The notes under the pieces: model-generated
What the model was told of the DNA's origin: nothing
What the model saw: only the letters and a program-made list of their open reading frames with translations
Database searches by the model: none
Shown here: piece by piece, positions 30,125-38,679 of the stretch
Layout: each line of letters begins with the position of its first letter
Numbering within the stretch: position 1 is the first letter of the stretch
Translations under genes and position numbers: made by a program
Virus record (IMG/VR): IMGVR_UViG_3300048597_000286
Coordinates: 1 to 38,902 of that record
Strand: one strand, 5' to 3'
DNA from: a virus
DNA length: 38,902 nucleotides

Positions 30125-31081
30125 TCACAGCGCCTGACCGGGCATGAGGTCGGCCCAGGCCGACATCATGTGGCCGAGGTCGCGCGGCTTCTCTTCGAGG
30201 GCCGCCAGCTGCGTCGCCATCTCAATTACGTTGGCGACACCACCGAGCGCGCCCGGCTGCTTTGCGACGCGGCGCAGGAAGTCGATTTCGTCCTTGGCCG
30301 TGACACCCCAGGCACCGGCGACGGTCCGGACGTCCTCGTCGAGCGTACGGACGGGCGGGCATCGCCGCGCGATGCGCCGGCGCAACTGCGCATATGCGGT
30401 GCCGTCAAAGACCGCCGACAACCGCTCGTCGCCGACCAGTGCCATGCCGCAGCCGGTCGCGTCCTGGATCGCACGCAGCTCTTCGATCGCCTGCACCGAG
30501 AGGTGCTGGGCTTCGTCCAGGATGATGAGAGCCCCGTGCTCCTTCACCTTGGCGCGGATCCGGCGCGCAAGGACGGCGGGCGCGCCCTTAGCGTCCGGCT
30601 CACCCATGGCGGCGAGCACCTCGGCCAGGGCGGTGGCGACCCCGCTCGTCGATGGCGCCATGGTCGCCAGATAGACCCGGTTCCTTTGCTGGCGCTGCTG
30701 ATCGCAGGCCATGGTCTTGCCCGAGCCCGGCTTCAATGGGACGAGGACGAGCTTCCCGAACATTTGCGCGTGATCGAGTGTGCGCAAAACCGCGTCGGCC
30801 GTCGGCGTCATCACGAAGCCGGGGCGGGTCACGCTCACGCGCATCTCGGCTTGCTTGTCCGCCCTCCACTGCAGCCAGCGGTCGACCTTCTCGGCGACCC
30901 CGGCGTTGTCGCCCGGATACTTGCCGTTCAGCCAGGGACCGAGCGTGCCTTCCGGCACATCGATTTCCTTGGCGATGTGGGAGCGCTTCAGCTTCTCGCG
31001 GTCGATCAGGCTCTGCGCCTTGATCCGGACCGCCTCGATCATGGCCTCGTCGAAGCCATCTTTCGGCGGAATGTATCCCAT
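30125..31081 (-). CDS. muB: MuB-like transposition activator ATPase
   Basis: The 318-residue AAA+ protein binds target DNA and stimulates MuA. An N-terminal helix-turn-helix lies at about residues 31-60 (KRSHIAKEIDVPEGTLGPWL). The Walker A is LKPGSGKT (116-123), where the first residue is Leu instead of the usual Gly/Ala; Walker B is LIILDEAQHL (Asp189-Glu190). The ATG at 31081 is chosen because AAGGA lies 8 nt upstream; two ATGs further upstream have no such signal. It follows MuA by 69 bp. Confidence 0.9.
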   Translation of the reverse strand: MGYIPPKDGFDEAMIEAVRIKAQSLIDREKLKRSHIAKEIDVPEGTLGPWLNGKYPGDNAGVAEKVDRWLQWRADKQAEMRVSVTRPGFVMTPTADAVLRTLDHAQMFGKLVLVPLKPGSGKTMACDQQRQQRNRVYLATMAPSTSGVATALAEVLAAMGEPDAKGAPAVLARRIRAKVKEHGALIILDEAQHLSVQAIEELRAIQDATGCGMALVGDERLSAVFDGTAYAQLRRRIARRCPPVRTLDEDVRTVAGAWGVTAKDEIDFLRRVAKQPGALGGVANVIEMATQLAALEEKPRDLGHMMSAWADLMPGQAL

Positions 31082-31150
31082 GCTATGCATCCTTCGTTGC
31101 TTTGTTGCGTGTTGCATCCCGGGTCCGGCGTTCCAGCGCCGGGCCCTTCT

Positions 31151-33121
31151 TCATTCCGGAAGCCGCTCGGCCTCCGGGATCGAGGAAACGAGCCGCAGCT
31201 CGCGATTGGCGCGCGCGGCAAGCGCCAGGCGCTCGCGCTCCGAAAAACTCAAGACCGGCTCGGCATGCGGTGCGGGCGCGAGCGCCGTGTTCCCGCGCTT
31301 CAGCCCGAAGACTGGCGCAATCACGCCGGGCGTCGCGTCGGGTTCGGCCGGCGCGTCGATCGACGCCTGCATCGCCGCCAGTTCGCTCGCCTCGAAGCGG
31401 CGATGCTGTTCCGACATTGCCTTTTGGGCTTTCAGGAACGCGGCACGCGTGCGCGCATGTGCGCGTCCGGTCTCCGCGTCGGCAAACCCGACCGGCTCGT
31501 GGCAGGGCGCCGTCATGAGGAACCGCCCGTCGAGGCTGTAGACGTGCACGTCGCCGTGCAGGTGCTCCGGATCGAAGCGCAACATAACCTTCTGCCCGAT
31601 CAGCGCGCCCATGCCTTCGGTCCAGTAGCTATTGCCGCCGATCCGGACGGCGCCCGAGCGCCGGTCGGGCGTGACCGCCTCGCTGGACAGGAGCGCGAGG
31701 CGCAGCTGCTCCGGCGTCGCACGGCGCACGGGCGACGCGGCGTAGCTTTCCGCGAACACCTGGTCGAACGAGCGCCCTTGCGCGATCGGGGTCCGCCTGC
31801 CGGGGCGCGCGTTCCAGAAGGCGATCTCCTGCTCGACGACGCGAATGAACTCGTCGAGCGGCACGGCGCGGCTCGCGTAATTCTCGGGCTTGGCGTGCGG
31901 GGCGTTGCCGGTATAGGCGCCCTCGAAGGCCGGATGCTTGGCGGTGTCGCCCGCGAAATCCCGGAAGCTGCGTTCAATGGGCTTGGACTGGCCCGAATAG
32001 GGCTTCGTCCAGTGCGCCTCGATCCCCAGCATGGTGAGCATGCCCATCGGCTCTTCGGCGCGGACCCGGAACCGGTAGCGCGAGCGCTGCCCGCCGGTGA
32101 CCTGCTTCGAGGCGAACGCCCGGCCGTTGTCGAGCCAGATCTGCGACGGCAGGCCATAGGCCGCCATCGCATCACCGAAGGCGAGTTTCACGCCGTCAGC
32201 GCTCTCGCTGAACCCGAAGCGCCAGCCGAGGATCTTGTTCGAGTAGAGATCGCTGACCGCGACCATGCAGGGGCGCGCGATCTCGCCATCCGGCCAGCGC
32301 ACGAAGACGTCGAACGTATGTCCGTCCGCGACCCAGGCCTCGCAGGCCGCGAAAGCCGAGCGGTCGCGCGTCAGATGCGGATAGAGCCGCCCAGCCGCTT
32401 CCGCGCCCTCGCGGCGCAGCACCTGGATCGCCTTCGGCACGTCGCGCAGCACCTTGCGCTTCAGGATGCCGAGCGGCGGCACGGCGAGACCCTGCGCCGT
32501 CGCGGCCCGCACTGTATGCCGGTAGCAGGCCTCGAATGAGGGCTTGCTAAGCCGCAGCCAGTCGTCCCGGAAGAGCGCGTAGACCGTCTCGTCGATCGCC
32601 GAGGCCGGCCGTCCGCCGCCGGATCGCGGGGCCAAGGCCGGGAGCCGGTCGCATGGGGCAACGCCCTGGCAGGCTTTGAGCCAGGACCAGACGGTTGAGG
32701 GCGACGGTTGGTCCGGCGCCTGCGCGGCCGCCAGCGCGACCGCGGCTGCCTTGGCGAGGCCGGTTCGTGTCAGCGTCTCGACCGCCTGGACGACGGCCAG
32801 GCGCGCCTGGGCCTCGCGCTTGGCGCGCGCGGAGAGTGCGTCATAGGCCGCCCAGAGTTCGGCCGGTGTCGGCTCGGGCTTCGCGGCCTCGGCGTTGCGG
32901 GCCAGCACCGCCCGCGCTGCGGCAGGCAGCAGAGAGATGTGATACTCGGTGCCGCCGCCGCGACCGCTGCGCGGGCGGGCAAGAGGGGCGCCTTTCGTGT
33001 CCCGCGCCGCAGCCCAGCCCTCGCGCTCCAGCACCTTGTTCAAGCCGCGCTTCGTCGCAGGCAAGCCCGGCAGTGCCAGGGCTGCGATCTCCGCCGCCGT
33101 GAGCCAGGGCCGCGCGCTCAT
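31151..33121 (-). CDS. muA: MuA-like DDE transposase
   Basis: The 656-residue protein starts with a MuA-type winged helix (LTAAEIAALALPGLPATKRG, residues 7-26) with an end-binding region following. The catalytic RNase H-fold residues are Asp266 (VADGHTFDVF), Asp331 (WLDNGRAF) and Glu383 (SKPIERSFRDF), close to MuA's 269/336/392. A C-terminal beta-barrel and MuB/ClpX-contact tail follow (from about residue 490). It cuts the phage ends at TG/CA and joins them to target with 5-bp duplication, in line with the flanking CTGAA copies. The start overlaps the upstream gene by 4 bp. Confidence 0.96.
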   Translation of the reverse strand: MSARPWLTAAEIAALALPGLPATKRGLNKVLEREGWAAARDTKGAPLARPRSGRGGGTEYHISLLPAAARAVLARNAEAAKPEPTPAELWAAYDALSARAKREAQARLAVVQAVETLTRTGLAKAAAVALAAAQAPDQPSPSTVWSWLKACQGVAPCDRLPALAPRSGGGRPASAIDETVYALFRDDWLRLSKPSFEACYRHTVRAATAQGLAVPPLGILKRKVLRDVPKAIQVLRREGAEAAGRLYPHLTRDRSAFAACEAWVADGHTFDVFVRWPDGEIARPCMVAVSDLYSNKILGWRFGFSESADGVKLAFGDAMAAYGLPSQIWLDNGRAFASKQVTGGQRSRYRFRVRAEEPMGMLTMLGIEAHWTKPYSGQSKPIERSFRDFAGDTAKHPAFEGAYTGNAPHAKPENYASRAVPLDEFIRVVEQEIAFWNARPGRRTPIAQGRSFDQVFAESYAASPVRRATPEQLRLALLSSEAVTPDRRSGAVRIGGNSYWTEGMGALIGQKVMLRFDPEHLHGDVHVYSLDGRFLMTAPCHEPVGFADAETGRAHARTRAAFLKAQKAMSEQHRRFEASELAAMQASIDAPAEPDATPGVIAPVFGLKRGNTALAPAPHAEPVLSFSERERLALAARANRELRLVSSIPEAERLPE

Positions 33122-33618
33122 GCGCCCCTCCGCTTGATGGCGAGGGTGGCGGGCGCGGCGGGCGCGAGCGCCTTCAAGCGCTTCTTCTCTTCGGTCAGCG
33201 CCGCGATCTGCCGGTCAATCAGGCCGGACTGGGCGTAGATCGCATCCGACCCCGCCAGCAGCGTCACGCCGAGCCCTTCGAGCGCCACGTCGAGCAGCCA
33301 CAGCGCACCGGTGACCTTAACGAGCGCGCGCAGCCGCGCGATCGGGATCGTGTGCTCGGGCCGCGCGGGTGAGGCATAGGCATTGAGCATGTGCTCGGTC
33401 ACCTCGTCGCCGAGCAGCTCGGACATTTCGAAGGCGACGCGCGCGCGGGACAGCCCGCAGAGCCGCAGGGCCTCGGAGACGGCCTGCGAAAACCGCCGGT
33501 TGAAATCCTCGGCGGTAACGACGCCGGCGGGCGCCGCGACCGGATAGAGCGCGGCGGCCGAGGCGAAGAGATCGCCCTGATGGACATCTGATGGCGGGTT
33601 GAGGCGGCGCTTAGGCAT
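33118..33618 (-). CDS. Early DNA-binding-type regulator upstream of transposase
   Basis: The 166-residue protein has a probable helix-turn-helix at about residues 35-75 (FSQAVSEALRLCGLSRARVA, then VTEHMLNAYASPARPEHTIP) and a C-terminal coiled coil (IDRQIAALTEEKKRLKAL). Proteins of this type occur just before MuA in some Mu-like phages; the function is unknown. The ATG at 33618 overlaps the upstream gene by 8 bp, and the next gene starts on its stop (ATGA). Confidence 0.7.
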   Translation of the reverse strand: MPKRRLNPPSDVHQGDLFASAAALYPVAAPAGVVTAEDFNRRFSQAVSEALRLCGLSRARVAFEMSELLGDEVTEHMLNAYASPARPEHTIPIARLRALVKVTGALWLLDVALEGLGVTLLAGSDAIYAQSGLIDRQIAALTEEKKRLKALAPAAPATLAIKRRGA

Positions 33619-34280: not shown

Positions 34281-34474
34281 CACACGAAGCCCTTCTTGAC
34301 GGCGAGCCACACCGGCACGGTCAGGCGCGCGTGTTCGCGCCGCTCGCGCGACGGCGCCGGCAGCACCTTGACCTGGCTCTTCGGCAGCCACGCTTCCCGC
34401 TCGCCGTCATGGACCAGCAGCGCCGAGGCGCTGCGGCGGACGATGTGCACCTCGATCTCGACGGTTTCAGCCAT
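34280..34474 (-). CDS. Small early protein, beta-rich, of unknown function
   Basis: The 64-residue protein (VEIEVHIVRRSASALLVHDG, then EREAWLPKSQVKV) has the look of short phage proteins that form a small beta-barrel (a pattern of hydrophobic strand, LVHDG turn, WLPKSQ strand). The function is unknown. Its ATG at 34474 lies inside the end of the ParB-like gene (8-bp overlap), and its stop is shared with the next start. Confidence 0.65.
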   Translation of the reverse strand: MAETVEIEVHIVRRSASALLVHDGEREAWLPKSQVKVLPAPSRERREHARLTVPVWLAVKKGFV

Positions 34475-35390
34475 GGGCTGTGCCCTTGGCCCTGGCCGGC
34501 GTCCGGATCGAATAGCCTTGGGGCAAAACGGTGGCCGCGATCGCGTCGAGCAGGCGTGCCTTCTCGCGCGGATCGAGGCTGCAGAAGGCGCTGAACAGCT
34601 TCTCGTGCGGCTTCTTCGAAGTGGCCGGTTTGGTCTCGCCTCCCGCGGCCCGGATCGCAGCGGCGGCGTTCGGTGCCTCGCCGGACGCGAGAAGTGCCAC
34701 CGCCTTGGCCTGCGTGTCGAAGTCCACGCCGGAAAGGCGCAGGAGCTCCGTCGTGGCGCGCTCCGCCTTGGTGCCGCGCAGGGCCTCCGCCGCAGATGGC
34801 GACAGGTTCCGGTAAATCTGCAGGTCCCGCTGGAAGGCGCGCTTCGAAAGCCCGACCTTGGCGGCAATGTCGTCCTGCAGGGGGTATGCAAGCGCCACGG
34901 TGGCGCTTGCATCGTCCGTCGCCGCAAGTAGATCCGCTGACGGCATCGGCTTACCGTGCCGCTTAAGCGCGCTGACCTTCCGCGCGCTCTCGCCGTCGCC
35001 AACCCCAGCCTCCTGCAGGAGCAGAGCGTAGAGCTCAGCCAGATGGGCGGCGCGGTCGAGCGCGTTGAGTTCGTGCCGGACAAGGTTCTCGCTGATCTCG
35101 CGCGCCCGTCGGCCCAGGGCCTCGTGATCGCGGATCACGGCCGGGATCTCCGACCAGGCAAGCGCGGCGCAGGCAGCCAGACGGTGCGCCCCCGCGACCA
35201 GGCGATAGCCGTCGCCCTCGTGGCACACTTCGATCCGCGTCAGCAGGCCATGGCGCAGAATGTCCTGGCGCAGGAACTCGGCATGGTCGGGATCGACAGG
35301 CCGGATGCGATCGGCCACCCGGATCGCCGCAATCGGGATCAGGATGGTTTCCTCGGCCTCCGGGCTGGGCACGGGCGAGATCTTGGTCAT
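34467..35390 (-). CDS. ParB/Srx-fold nuclease-like protein
   Basis: The 307-residue protein has a ParB N-terminal domain (about residues 16-85: IPIAAIRVADRIRP, DILRHGLLTRIEV, YRLVAGAHRLAAC) with the AGAHRLAA box, then ENLVRHELNALDRAAHLAEL as in ParB/RepB proteins, and a helix-turn-helix region around 170-190 (DDIAAKVGLSKRAFQRDLQI). In phages such proteins act as DNA-binding regulators or, less often, nucleases; no ParA is present, so it is not a standard partition pair. A perfect-geometry inverted repeat ends at the base before its ATG, suggesting autoregulation. Confidence 0.85.
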   Translation of the reverse strand: MTKISPVPSPEAEETILIPIAAIRVADRIRPVDPDHAEFLRQDILRHGLLTRIEVCHEGDGYRLVAGAHRLAACAALAWSEIPAVIRDHEALGRRAREISENLVRHELNALDRAAHLAELYALLLQEAGVGDGESARKVSALKRHGKPMPSADLLAATDDASATVALAYPLQDDIAAKVGLSKRAFQRDLQIYRNLSPSAAEALRGTKAERATTELLRLSGVDFDTQAKAVALLASGEAPNAAAAIRAAGGETKPATSKKPHEKLFSAFCSLDPREKARLLDAIAATVLPQGYSIRTPARAKGTAHG

Positions 35391-35415
35391 GTCTAAATCG
35401 CCCCTTCCATTTGAC
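35391..35415. promoter_or_regulatory. 7-11-7 operator, copy A (parB start)
   Basis: GTCTAAA-N11-ATTTGAC lies directly against the ParB ATG and covers its ribosome-binding site. Its right arm also contains TTGACG (35411-35416), a possible -35 for the plus-strand gene at 35469. It has the same geometry as copies at 35842 and 38525; the flanking 37 bp are also closely similar to copy B. Confidence 0.7.
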
Positions 35416-35468
35416 GAGACTCCGGCGCGCCAGCCGTTAGGATGCGGCGGCAATTTGGGGAGGCCCTC

Positions 35469-35738
35469 ATGGACGATGACCTGACCGCGCTGGGCCAGCT
35501 CCTGCGCGACGCGGCCGAGAAGGCGGACACAGCCGAGCGGGACGCACAGGCGGCGGGTGTAGCCCTCGCCTCGGTGGTGAGGGTGCTGGCGGCCAAGGGC
35601 TTGATCGCCGCCGAGGACCTGCTCGCCCAGGATCGCGCGCTCATGTCGGCACCCGACCTGAAGGAGCGCCCGGACGTGCGGGACCGCACGCGGCAGATGC
35701 TGCACATGCTGGCGGCGATGGCGGACACCGCCCTCTGA
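35469..35738 (+). CDS. Small acidic helical protein on the opposite strand of the early region
   Basis: The 89-residue protein starts MDDDLTALGQLLRDAAEKAD and is helical and Ala/Asp-rich throughout, with GVALASVVRVLAAKGLIAAE in the middle. Codon use with high third-position GC and a GGGGAGG ribosome site 5 nt before the ATG support it as real. It runs against early transcription between ner and parB, so it would be silenced or antisense-regulated when the early promoter is active. No family is recognised. Confidence 0.65.
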   Translation: MDDDLTALGQLLRDAAEKADTAERDAQAAGVALASVVRVLAAKGLIAAEDLLAQDRALMSAPDLKERPDVRDRTRQMLHMLAAMADTAL

Positions 35739-35841
35739 GCCAGGCATCGACACGGTCCGCCACCGGGCGCGTGGCGGCACCAGTATTGAGCCAGAGACCC
35801 AGACCGGAAACAGGAGCGCAGGAATGCGATGCGTCGCCCAT

Positions 35842-35866
35842 GTCTAAACCGCCCCCGCCTTTAGAC
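35842..35866. promoter_or_regulatory. 7-11-7 operator, copy B (ner 3' end)
   Basis: GTCTAAA-N11-TTTAGAC is a perfect inverted repeat with 7-bp arms, overlapping the ner stop codon (TAG at 35844-35846). On the minus strand it ends TTTAGACATG, like copy A. Confidence 0.75.
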
Positions 35867-36128
35867 GGGACTCGCCACGAGCCCGCGTGTTACCTGTTGC
35901 GAGACTCGAATGAAGGCGGCGCTCGCCGCGCACGAACCTGTGAGGCCAGATGAATTCCGGCGTCAGACCCAGCGCCTCAGCGATGGCACGTTCGATCCGC
36001 GGGCGGCCGTTCTTAAGCGCGTCCCGAACGCTGTCCTTGGGCAGACCGCGAGTAATCTCGAACGCGCTCATCGACCCGTACTTCATGCGCAAGCGCGCCT
36101 TGATCTCTTCCGGGTGAAGTCCTGCCAT
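35844..36128 (-). CDS. ner: Ner-like early repressor
   Basis: The 94-residue protein contains the Ner/SfsB-type DNA-binding domain: LHPEEIKARLRMKYGSMSAF, then RIERAIAEALGLTPEFIWPH followed by RF. In Mu, Ner turns down the early and repressor promoters after infection. The ATG at 36128 has GGAAG 9 nt upstream; a longer frame back to 36197 would run into the repressor gene. The final 25 residues beyond the domain are basic. It is divergent from the repressor, with the operators between. Confidence 0.87.
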   Translation of the reverse strand: MAGLHPEEIKARLRMKYGSMSAFEITRGLPKDSVRDALKNGRPRIERAIAEALGLTPEFIWPHRFVRGERRLHSSLATGNTRARGESRLKAGAV

Positions 36129-36153
36129 GTCTGTGTCTTCCAAAAGGGGCAAA

Positions 36154-36179
36154 TCACCCCGTTTCGGTGAACATACACC
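36154..36179. promoter_or_regulatory. Repressor/Ner operator palindromes
   Basis: Two overlapping inverted repeats share one arm: TCACC-CCGTTTC-GGTGA (36154-36170) and GGTG-AACATA-CACC (36166-36179). They lie between the divergent repressor and ner genes and cover the predicted -10 of the early promoter. They are the likely binding sites of the repressor, of Ner, or of both. Confidence 0.7.
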
Positions 36180-36197
36180 ACAAACCGGGATGTTCAA
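36170..36197 (-). promoter_or_regulatory. Early promoter (Pe-like) for ner
   Basis: On the minus strand TTGAAC (36197-36192) and TATGTT (36175-36170) are separated by 16 bp, with ner starting about 42 bp downstream of the -10. The -10 is inside the operator palindrome, as expected for a repressible early promoter. Confidence 0.6.
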
Positions 36198-36858
36198 GCC
36201 CCAGGATGCACCGCAAGAGGAATCTGGGTCGCTCGGCTTTGCAGATCGGATGCGTCAGGCGCTGCGCGGCCGTCCGCCAGCCAATGTGGCGCGGGCTATC
36301 GGCGTGCCGGCGCAGACGATGGACCGGTGGGTTAAGGGCCGCATGCCCAAAGCCGACGACGCTCTGAAGATCGCCGACGAGCTAGGCATCGACTTGCGAT
36401 GGCTGCTAACGGGCGAGGGCGAGATGGGCGAGGCACCGCCGGACGGCCTCGTTATGGTGCCACGCTTCGACCTGCGGCTAGCCGCGGGCGACGGCGCCTG
36501 GAACGAGCGCGCGCAATCATTGGGCTCGATTCCGTTCGAAGGCGCGATGCTGCGCCGCCTCTTGGGCCGCGCAGGAGCGGGAGGCCTCGCGGTATTTCAG
36601 GTCACGGGCGACAGCATGGAGCCGACCATCCGTGACGGCTCTTTGGTCTTGGTGGACGAGCGCGACACGCGACTGGCCGACGCAGTCTTCGCATTCGTCG
36701 CCGTCGATGAGGCCCGGATCAAGCGCTTCCGCCGCACCTTGACCGGGATCGAGATCGCGTCCGACAATCCCCTGTATCCGGCGGCGACCATTGAAGGCGA
36801 CGCCCTCGGTGATTTGCAGATCATCGGCCGTGTCCGCTGGATCGGCCAGAGCATATAA
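36190..36858 (+). CDS. c: Phage repressor, HTH plus S24 peptidase (LexA/CI type)
   Basis: From the ATG at 36190 the protein has 222 residues. A helix-turn-helix lies at about 31-65 (ANVARAIGVPAQTMDRWVKG), then a linker and an S24 domain with the nucleophile Ser142 (VTGDSMEPTI) and general base Lys178 (ARIKRF). Ala99-Gly100 in LAAGDG is the probable cleavage site. This predicts RecA-stimulated self-cleavage and SOS induction, different from the classic Mu c repressor. An upstream in-frame ATG at 36127 would cross the operators, so the shorter start is preferred, although no clear ribosome site precedes it. Confidence 0.88.
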   Translation: MFKPQDAPQEESGSLGFADRMRQALRGRPPANVARAIGVPAQTMDRWVKGRMPKADDALKIADELGIDLRWLLTGEGEMGEAPPDGLVMVPRFDLRLAAGDGAWNERAQSLGSIPFEGAMLRRLLGRAGAGGLAVFQVTGDSMEPTIRDGSLVLVDERDTRLADAVFAFVAVDEARIKRFRRTLTGIEIASDNPLYPAATIEGDALGDLQIIGRVRWIGQSI

Positions 36859-36870
36859 AGGAGGATTGAT

Positions 36871-37698
36871 ATGCCGGTCTCGCAGAAGGTCAGAACCCGA
36901 ATTATCGCCGAGTTGAAGCCGTTCATTCATGTCGTTGAGGAAGCACGCAAGCGTGATGTGAGCGAAAGCGACACAGTCGTCATCATCGGCGACATGATCG
37001 CGGCGATTATGGGCTATCGCAAATATACAGAAATAACGACTGAGTTCGCGATCAGGGGAACGTTTGTCGATCTGGCGGTTAAGATCGAAAGCGACGTGCG
37101 ATTTTTGGTCGAGGCCAAGGCCGTAAATGTCGACCTGAAGGAAAGCCACATCAAACAGGCGGTCGACTACGGTGCAAACCAAGGGATCGAGTGGGTCGTT
37201 CTCACGAATGCCGCACGATGGATGGTCTTCCGGATCGGTTTCGGGCAGCCGATCTCAGCCACATTGGTGCTGGACATCGACATCGTCGCAGTAGGCCATC
37301 GCAATGAAGAGGCGATCACGCTTTTCGGCAATTTGAGCCGGGAGGAGTTTACCAAGTCCGGGATGCAGCAGGTCTTCATGAACCGGCAGGCAACCAGCCC
37401 ATACGCCCTCGCGGCACTGTTGATGGCGCCGGATCAGCTTTCCTACCTTCGGCGCGAGCTGCGCCGTCTCAACCCGGGCCTGCGCATCGAGGACGATGAA
37501 ATCGCACGGGTCCTCAAGCAGGATGTACTCAAGCGCGAGCTCGTCGACAGCGAGGATGCAACCAAGGCCGCGACCGCCTTGCGCAAGCTGCAGCAGTCGG
37601 CCGAGCGGCGAAAGGCGGCAGCCGCGAAAAGCAAGGACGCGGCGGCGGCTTCGTCCGACGGGGCGGAGTCCGAAACCCTGACCGAAGCGGGTAACTGA
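36871..37698 (+). CDS. Type I restriction R-subunit N-terminal-like protein (PD-(D/E)XK)
   Basis: The 275-residue protein resembles the N-terminal nuclease domain of HsdR-type enzymes: SESDTVVIIGDMIAAIMGY, then GTFVDLAVKIESDVRFLVEA followed by KAV, giving catalytic Asp67, Glu81 and Lys83, and IKQAVDYGANQGIEWVVLTN. No helicase domain follows; instead there is a helical C-terminal half and a low-complexity Ala/Lys tail. A strong AAAGGAGG site precedes the ATG, 12 bp after the repressor stop, so it is probably expressed in the lysogen. A role in defence against other phages is plausible but not shown. Confidence 0.78.
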   Translation: MPVSQKVRTRIIAELKPFIHVVEEARKRDVSESDTVVIIGDMIAAIMGYRKYTEITTEFAIRGTFVDLAVKIESDVRFLVEAKAVNVDLKESHIKQAVDYGANQGIEWVVLTNAARWMVFRIGFGQPISATLVLDIDIVAVGHRNEEAITLFGNLSREEFTKSGMQQVFMNRQATSPYALAALLMAPDQLSYLRRELRRLNPGLRIEDDEIARVLKQDVLKRELVDSEDATKAATALRKLQQSAERRKAAAAKSKDAAAASSDGAESETLTEAGN

Positions 37699-37709
37699 AG
37701 GTGTCGGCT

Positions 37710-38126
37710 ATGCAAACAAACTCGATAGCTTCGATCTTGGTCATAGCTGCACTCATGATCACTGCCGCCAGCGCTCGGCCTGTCTCCGAAGTCGAAAAGG
37801 ACTCAGTCAAGGCGGCAATGGATGCGGTGCTGTTCGACCCATACAGTGCCGTCTACAAGTTTGAGCCTGAGGCTCGATGCGCACGGATCAATCCTGAGTC
37901 TGAAGGCCGCATTATCGGCGCGAAGTGGTATGGCTACGTGGCAACAGTGTCCATTAACGCGAAGAACCGCATGGGCGGATATGTTGGCGCGCAAACCTTC
38001 CTGGCTCTTTTGAAGGACGACGGGTCGGGAACCTTCAAGGTGCTGTCGCCTGACCTTCAGTCCGATCGCGGCAAGGGGTTTGGAGCAGGCCTCGTCCCAA
38101 CGCTCGTCTTTTATTCTTGCAGGTGA
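37710..38126 (+). CDS. Secreted/periplasmic protein of unknown function
   Basis: The 138-residue protein has an N-terminal signal peptide with hydrophobic core (ASILVIAALMITAASARP) and a predicted cut after ASA. The mature part is about 115 residues, with two cysteines (in EARCARI and the C-terminal FYSCR) that could pair. The ATG at 37710 is preceded by GAAGGTG; a GTG at 37701 is the alternative. It follows the restriction-like gene by 11 bp and probably shares the repressor transcript. Surface or periplasmic exclusion of superinfecting phage is one possibility. Confidence 0.65.
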   Translation: MQTNSIASILVIAALMITAASARPVSEVEKDSVKAAMDAVLFDPYSAVYKFEPEARCARINPESEGRIIGAKWYGYVATVSINAKNRMGGYVGAQTFLALLKDDGSGTFKVLSPDLQSDRGKGFGAGLVPTLVFYSCR

Positions 38127-38133
38127 CGACAAG

Positions 38134-38235
38134 TTGGTTTTGGGCTGGTTCAGCACAATCTGCGGATGGGCCTTTCTTCTCGGCCCCGCCGTGGTCGCTG
38201 CCTGGGCGCTTATCGAGCGCGCATCGCGCCCGTAA
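38134..38235 (+). CDS. Possible 33-residue membrane peptide
   Basis: A TTG-initiated frame gives LVLGWFSTICGWAFLLGPAV and then VAAWALIERASRP, one transmembrane helix with a basic end, ending at TAA 38233. AGGTGA overlaps the stop of the preceding gene about 8 nt upstream, allowing translational coupling. Short single-helix peptides are common at prophage ends, but such frames also arise by chance. It would be the last gene of the repressor operon. Confidence 0.4.
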   Translation: MVLGWFSTICGWAFLLGPAVVAAWALIERASRP

Positions 38236-38249
38236 TCCCGCTGGCAGCA

Positions 38250-38371
38250 GTTCCCACTTCTTTGCGACCTCGTGCGGGCCGTTTAGGCCGCGCATAAGTG
38301 ACAACCCTCTGATCTGCCGAGGTAAATTGGCGAGTTCCCACTTCCGGAGCGAAGTGGGAACCGAGTTCCCA
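38250..38371. repeat. GTTCCCA repeat cluster at the left end
   Basis: GTTCCCACTTC occurs at 38250-38260 and 38334-38344; its inverted copy GAAGTGGGAAC follows at 38351-38361 after a 6-nt loop, forming a perfect 11-bp stem. A further CGAGTTCCCA (38362-38371) repeats the 38331-38340 sequence. The cluster lies 303-424 bp inside the phage end. It may bind the transposase, repressor or a host factor, or end transcription from the repressor operon; there is no T tract. Confidence 0.7.
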
Positions 38372-38524
38372 GTTCGCCACCCCCTCGCGACCGCCTATTG
38401 CGGTCTGGGCCGAAGAGGGAATCATGCAAGAAACCCCGGAAATCCGCCCCTCAGGCGCGCCTTAAGGGCGTCTAAGGGCTGTGTGCTGATCGGTGCCCGC
38501 AGCGGCCTCCGTGGCCGCCTGGCT

Positions 38525-38549
38525 GTCTAAAACACCGTTCACTCTAGAC
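38525..38549. promoter_or_regulatory. 7-11-7 operator, copy C (left end)
   Basis: GTCTAAA-N11-TCTAGAC has the same arm and spacer lengths as the copies at 35391 and 35842. It lies 125-149 bp from the phage left terminus, a zone that in Mu holds the L2/L3 transposase sites. Confidence 0.65.
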
Positions 38550-38612
38550 AGCGCGCCCGCCCGCCGCGATGATGCCCCAGAAGCCGATTTTGGGCGGTTT
38601 TTCGGGGTTTCG

Positions 38613-38674
38613 TCCCGCTAAGTCCCGCCTGATCCCGCCTAATCCCGCACTCCAGAACCTTTCATCCCCTTACA
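38613..38674. repeat. Phage left end with four 10-bp-spaced TCCCGC iterons
   Basis: TCCCGC occurs at 38613, 38623, 38633 and 38643, spaced by exactly 10 bp, about one helical turn, so all face the same side of DNA. They lie 26-61 bp from the terminus. The end itself reads TGTAAGGGGATGAAAGG inward. The right end has no matching iterons, so the two ends are asymmetric, as in Mu. Confidence 0.75.
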
Positions 38675-38679
38675 CTGAA
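38675..38679. repeat. 5-bp target-site duplication, right copy (CTGAA)
   Basis: This direct copy of 558-562 lies immediately after the terminal CA (38673-38674) of the prophage and marks the host junction. Confidence 0.9.

Follow-up and report, generated by a model that had tools for sequence, protein, structure and literature searches.

Dispersed dyads at the early operon and left end of a Mu-like prophage as candidate operators of a phrog_2345 regulator

Near the left end of phage Mu, sites are shared by the transposase, the enhancer and the repressor, and the repressor competes with the transposase MuA at the enhancer. Transposase control in other Mu-like phages has, to our knowledge, been little studied. 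Each end of Mu carries three MuA sites, which are bridged by MuA with an enhancer near the left end (PMC3562280). Active Mu-like phages of Citromicrobium are known (PMC12486242), and ParB was noted in Mu-like roseophages, for which no site was given (PMC5488378). The present analysis was carried out on a single IMG/VR record, IMGVR_UViG_3300048597_000286, taken at its full length of 38,902 nucleotides (hereafter the window), in which a widely spaced dyad, GTCTAAA-N11-TTTAGAC, occurs at the start of a parB-like gene, at the end of ner and near the left end of a Mu-like prophage. From comparisons of related sequences we infer that these dyads are probably paired operators of an XRE regulator of family phrog_2345, one of them lying at the transposition end. 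No description of the dyad element or of its regulator was found in the papers searched.

The dyads in the window and in related phages

With up to three mismatches allowed, the window contains three matches to the pattern and no more, where 0.12 were expected; none of 100 shuffles gave three matches and the reversed-pattern control gave none. All three copies were assigned to the minus strand. Copy A (35391-35415, two mismatches) abuts the parB ATG (35390-35388) in the gap between parB and a small divergent gene, copy B (35842-35866) is a perfect dyad that contains the ner stop codon and is directly followed by an ATG, and copy C (38525-38549, one mismatch) is flanked by transposase site L1 and the L2 region. 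As the terminus was placed exactly at 38674, the outer edge of copy C (38549) is exactly 125 bp inside the left end. The 7-11-7 geometry, the three coordinates with their mismatch levels and the three positions had been read from the letters alone in an earlier note on this DNA and were all recovered here, as were the flanks that copies A and B share up to the ATG; both copies end in TTTAGAC-ATG and also share their reading frame (ESRLKAGAV and ESRQMEGAI, each followed by a stop). Copies A and B stand either side of the small gene on the opposite strand (35469-35738, plus strand; phrog_8747, E 0.009) and look like one ner-end/parB leader that was duplicated around an inserted gene, duplication being the simplest view of the sequence; the related locus L090 offers a parallel, with the element at the ner end and again at the parB start. 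A small, seemingly divergent gene upstream of parB, with the element in the gap, was also seen in L018, L044, L050, L078 and others.

Relatives were retrieved using an alignment of six transposases (that of the window and those of five annotated phages), which yielded 160 related loci; scans of viral contigs with the window ParB alone, the transposase alone or the A/B consensus DNA gave no matches. At two mismatches or fewer, the element occurred 45 times in the 160 loci against 0-16 times for five scrambled halves. The exact form GTCTA-N15-TAGAC was found 40 times in 2.77 Mb, of which 23 were left-end copies, 16 lay at the ner end or parB start and one elsewhere, while 59 permuted half-sites gave a mean of 2.0 occurrences and a maximum of 29 (TCGAT). 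The lone copy elsewhere (L122:11933) lies just 3' of the transposase frame of an Acetobacteraceae phage that lacks the regulator, and is possibly a chance occurrence. In 20 whole relative records searched at two mismatches or fewer, copies were confined to the left end and the ner end or parB start, and none was found at the right end. One 3.6-Mb host genome, not that of the window, contained three matches, two at unassigned places and one in a second copy of the left-end sequence of the phage; the reversed control gave 11. The motif therefore does not have many chance copies in that chromosome and is kept in related phages, nearly always at two fixed places. The view of the earlier note, that the dyads form a distinct, dispersed, operator-like set tying the early operon to the transposition end, is judged right; the observation is confirmed and its significance is greater than first claimed.

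The copy at the ner end or parB start was examined for the level at which it is constrained. In relatives, the element spans the last codons of the frame preceding parB, the stop codon and the next ATG. The preceding gene is ner in some relatives, elsewhere a frame seemingly antisense to another gene (e.g. L078), and in L124, L075 and L039 a YdaS-like helix-turn-helix (HTH) protein, judged by eye from its sequence, with the same DNA tail. Codons were counted in 69 Ner ends picked by the Ner profile alone, an earlier count on base-selected sites having been discarded. Codon -6 ended in A in 57 of the 69 (background 11%) with a variable middle base, encoding Gln, Leu, Pro or Arg, and codon -7 ended in T in 51 (background 19%). 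L145 reads this DNA in a different frame, which places the ner stop within the left arm. Since third bases and rare codons are fixed while amino acids change, the constraint acts on DNA and not on the peptide. Where genes intervene between ner and parB, the element often remains at the ner end (L029, L064, L016, L085).

Left termini were located using a profile of the first 34 bp; in the window, the left terminus with transposase site L1 (TGTAAGGGGATGAAAGGTTCTGGAGTGCGGGATT; 38641-38674, minus strand) scored 33.2 against -4.9 for the runner-up on that side. Of the 62 left ends located in this way, 38 contained the dyad (at least 8 of 10 matches), compared with 3 of 186 control stretches. The distances between dyad and terminus were 101-104, 114, 124-125, 133-135 and 167 bp, periodic at approximately 10.5 bp (p ~0.01 in a random-spacing test on the means of five groups). 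In most phages a copy of the phage's own L1 site lies 3' of the dyad, and L1, L2 and L3-like sites are visible in relatives. For Hyphomicrobiales phages the GACA of L2 starts at the GAC of the dyad right arm (offset 0), and for most Sphingomonadales it lies 10-11 bp beyond, so that the dyad either overlies transposase site L2 or stands one turn away from it. The left-end copy is in helical register with both the terminus and L2. Tandem GCGGGA-type repeats lie just within the left terminus (38600-38647) and are present in most relatives' left ends; they are perhaps contacts of the transposase or of an architectural protein.

Association with the phrog_2345 regulator

The regulator gene (33118-33618, minus strand; 166 residues) lies between parB (34467-35390, minus strand) and transposase gene A (31151-33121, minus strand), just upstream of A. 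Residues 57-198 of the listed open reading frame matched the profile of phrog_2345 ('transcriptional regulator') with an E value of 2e-32; Pfam, NCBIfam and PDB sequence searches with the regulator gave no confident match and no curated family above cut-off. The AlphaFold model (mean predicted local distance difference test score, pLDDT, of 86.8, core above 90) displays a five-helix HTH fold of the XRE/Cro-CI type and a long C-terminal helix (model residues 124-151), and was matched to solved XRE chains with a Foldseek probability of ~1 and a VIA Z of up to 10.0. The model and the XRE matches place the predicted recognition helix at residues 75-82.

A gene-content scan by single-sequence search pointed to this regulator, though antisense open frames and host-clade signal made up most of its output. 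The regulator was present in all 38 left-end-positive loci and in 11 of the 24 left-end-negative ones, and the element with its ATG was found in 69 of 110 regulator-bearing loci against 0 of 34 regulator-less loci, most of which carry parB. Sites and regulator also changed together. L091 and L115 carry A in place of G at half-site position 1, in the left arms of the two sites; the right arm of the left-end copy is also altered. Using columns at least 85% conserved among 43 sphingomonad-type phages, changes unique to these two phages were found at 10 of 34 positions in the regulator, 0 of 41 in ParB, 1 of 210 in A and 2 of 53 in B (Fisher test for the regulator, 1.6e-4 against ParB and 8e-9 against A). 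Six of the ten regulator changes (M77, L78, A80, Y81, A85 and H89 of the window protein) fell in or just after helix 75-82. The regulators of L091 and L115 are 94% identical while their A proteins share 65% and their ParB proteins 60% identity, a difference that points to an exchange of the regulator in which the sites went along. In L151, Tyr replaces His89 and GAT replaces GAC in the right arms of both sites; among left ends, all 35 that go with His89 have G1 on both arms, and all 3 that go with Phe or Tyr have an altered arm.

Several observations weigh against the regulator as ligand. Among regulator-bearing phages whose left end was located, 11 lack the left-end copy, and 41 of the 110 regulator-bearing loci have no strict ner-end element, several of them being near misses and others, such as the gammaproteobacterial L163, lacking it. 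Many Sphingomonadales have a weak right arm at parB (TGAAC or TGAGC). The correlation between regulator and element is phylogenetically clumped, and in a tree-based analysis seven independent pairs differed in regulator presence, of which 0-3 were informative, a result that is not significant. Residue 89 did not come first when all regulator columns were scanned by mutual information, and the co-change rests on approximately two independent events. The L2 region of the window itself (38503-38527, minus strand, 3' of copy C), where relatives have L2, has decayed, its match to the window's own L1 being no better than the null.

Other candidate ligands and a possible mode of action

The earlier note had named the ParB-like protein as the best candidate ligand, which would make the dyads a parS-like or autoregulatory operator. 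Copy A adjoins the parB ATG, the element is often at the parB start and parB is present in 69 of 69 strict-element loci. However, the regulator-less loci lack the element although most carry parB, the ParB-less locus L145 retains GTCTA-N15-CAGAC-ATG, the element stays with the ner end where genes separate ner from parB, and no conserved ParB position changed in the phages in which both sites had changed. ParB is not sufficient, because Rhodobacterales phages and the Methylosinus loci L136 and L137 carry parB and lack both regulator and element. Binding by ParB was therefore not borne out and is unlikely, while the accompanying idea of autoregulation with a link to the transposition end survives with the ligand replaced by the regulator encoded between parB and A. 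It is about as doubtful that transposase A itself reads the dyad, for instance by its N-terminal domain, in which case the ner-end copy would be a transposition enhancer of the Mu type. This would suit the position of the left-end copy on or beside L2 in helical register, and the enhancer near the Mu left end is indeed bound by MuA (PMC3562280), but the dyad is unlike the L-site sequence (GACACTTGAATCTGGAGT), all of the phages examined have A, even those lacking the element, and only one of its conserved positions changed together with the sites.

A host-encoded architectural or regulatory protein of Alphaproteobacteria is a still less probable ligand. The element occurs chiefly in phages of alphaproteobacterial hosts and is missing from gammaproteobacterial relatives; however, Rhodobacterales phages also lack it, the one host genome searched has no excess of dyads, and the changes in the sites follow a phage gene. 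It is very improbable that Ner binds its own 3' end, or that the conservation reflects only a Ner peptide tail or an RNA hairpin at the parB start. Copy B does lie within the 3' end of ner, and many Ner proteins have HR[LQ]-like tails, but the same DNA is found on unrelated upstream frames and the left-end copy is beyond any recognised gene. Ner is dispensable, because 33 element-bearing loci have no detected Ner. Conservation of the peptide tail alone was ruled out by the fixed codon third bases, beside which residues vary, and the RNA hairpin by the loss of its stem in clades with a TGAAC right arm.

If the dyads are operators of the phrog_2345 regulator, a dimer would read two GTCTA half-sites 20 bp apart, that is two helical turns and on the same face of the DNA, and the long C-terminal helix could bridge this distance, perhaps by joining the dimer. 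At the ner end or parB start the regulator would act within the early operon, and as an operator at this place lies upstream of parB, the regulator gene, A and B, we propose that it would limit expression of both the regulator and the transposase. A dimer on L2, or one turn from it, would by the same proposal block, compete with or order the loading of transposase. Through a single protein, the supply of transposase would thereby be coupled to the state of the end used in transposition. Repression is the preferred sign of regulation, which like the effect on transposition is conjectural, and looping between the early-operon and left-end sites, which are 2-3 kb apart, is possible. More tentatively, a large group of Mu-like, ParB-bearing alphaproteobacterial phages may possess a dedicated XRE regulator whose operator lies on L2 in register and is repeated in the early operon, possibly with looping, and which may couple transposase synthesis to end loading. 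For alphaproteobacterial phages there is now a named candidate regulator, together with a specified pair of sites and naturally occurring specificity variants, and control of replicative transposition outside Mu has therefore become directly testable.

Prophage context and comparison with known systems

The window contains a complete Mu-like prophage of 38,112 bp (563-38674). Both termini are 5'-TG (at 563 and 38674), with the same 5 bp, CTGAA, directly outside each (558-562 at the right end and 38675-38679, read from the sequence, at the left). The prophage thus has the DDE transposase A, MuB homologue, TG termini and 5-bp target duplication of a Mu-like transposable phage: A has Mu DDE, I-gamma and C-terminal domains (PF02914, E 1e-49), and transposition protein B, the MuB homologue, is encoded at 30125-31117 on the minus strand (Phage-MuB_C, E 4e-14). 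The ParB-like protein (phrog_3264) has a PF02195 N-terminal domain; no ParA ATPase was found among ten early genes scanned, a scan that did not cover every open reading frame. Ner (35844-36128, minus strand; PF13693, HTH_35), whose final codons coincide with copy B, lies next to a CI-like repressor gene on the plus strand (36127-36858). The plus-strand gene 3' of it (36871-37698; phrog_17239) encodes a type I restriction HSDR_N-like domain (E 7.5e-6). Two minus-strand genes at the right end (650-1894 and 1904-2677) match the PADLOC candidate defence pairs PDC-M30A and PDC-M41B/PDC-M30B (E 8e-15 and 2e-98), and this pair (650-2677) is a possible cargo defence system.

Of the described systems, phage Mu is alike in its three left-end transposase sites (L1-L3) and in an extra regulatory DNA site nearer the left than the right end. 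However, the Mu enhancer (E/IAS) is bound by the MuA N-terminal domain, whereas the dyad is a separate element that lies on or next to L2, is repeated after ner and changes together with another gene. The roseophages vB_ThpS-P1, vB_PeaS-P1 and vB_RhkS_P1 also carry ParB directly upstream of a Mu-type transposase A, but have no detected phrog_2345 gene and no dyads. ParB/parS systems likewise place a ParB-like gene beside a palindrome, whereas the dyad described here is widely spaced, is missing from ParB-bearing relatives without the regulator and is present without ParB in L145. The predicted fold of the phrog_2345 protein is that of XRE/Cro-CI regulators such as C.BclI, C.Esp1396I and the phage 186 regulator (6vmh), from which it differs in its long C-terminal helix and in the wide spacing (20 bp) of its predicted half-sites.

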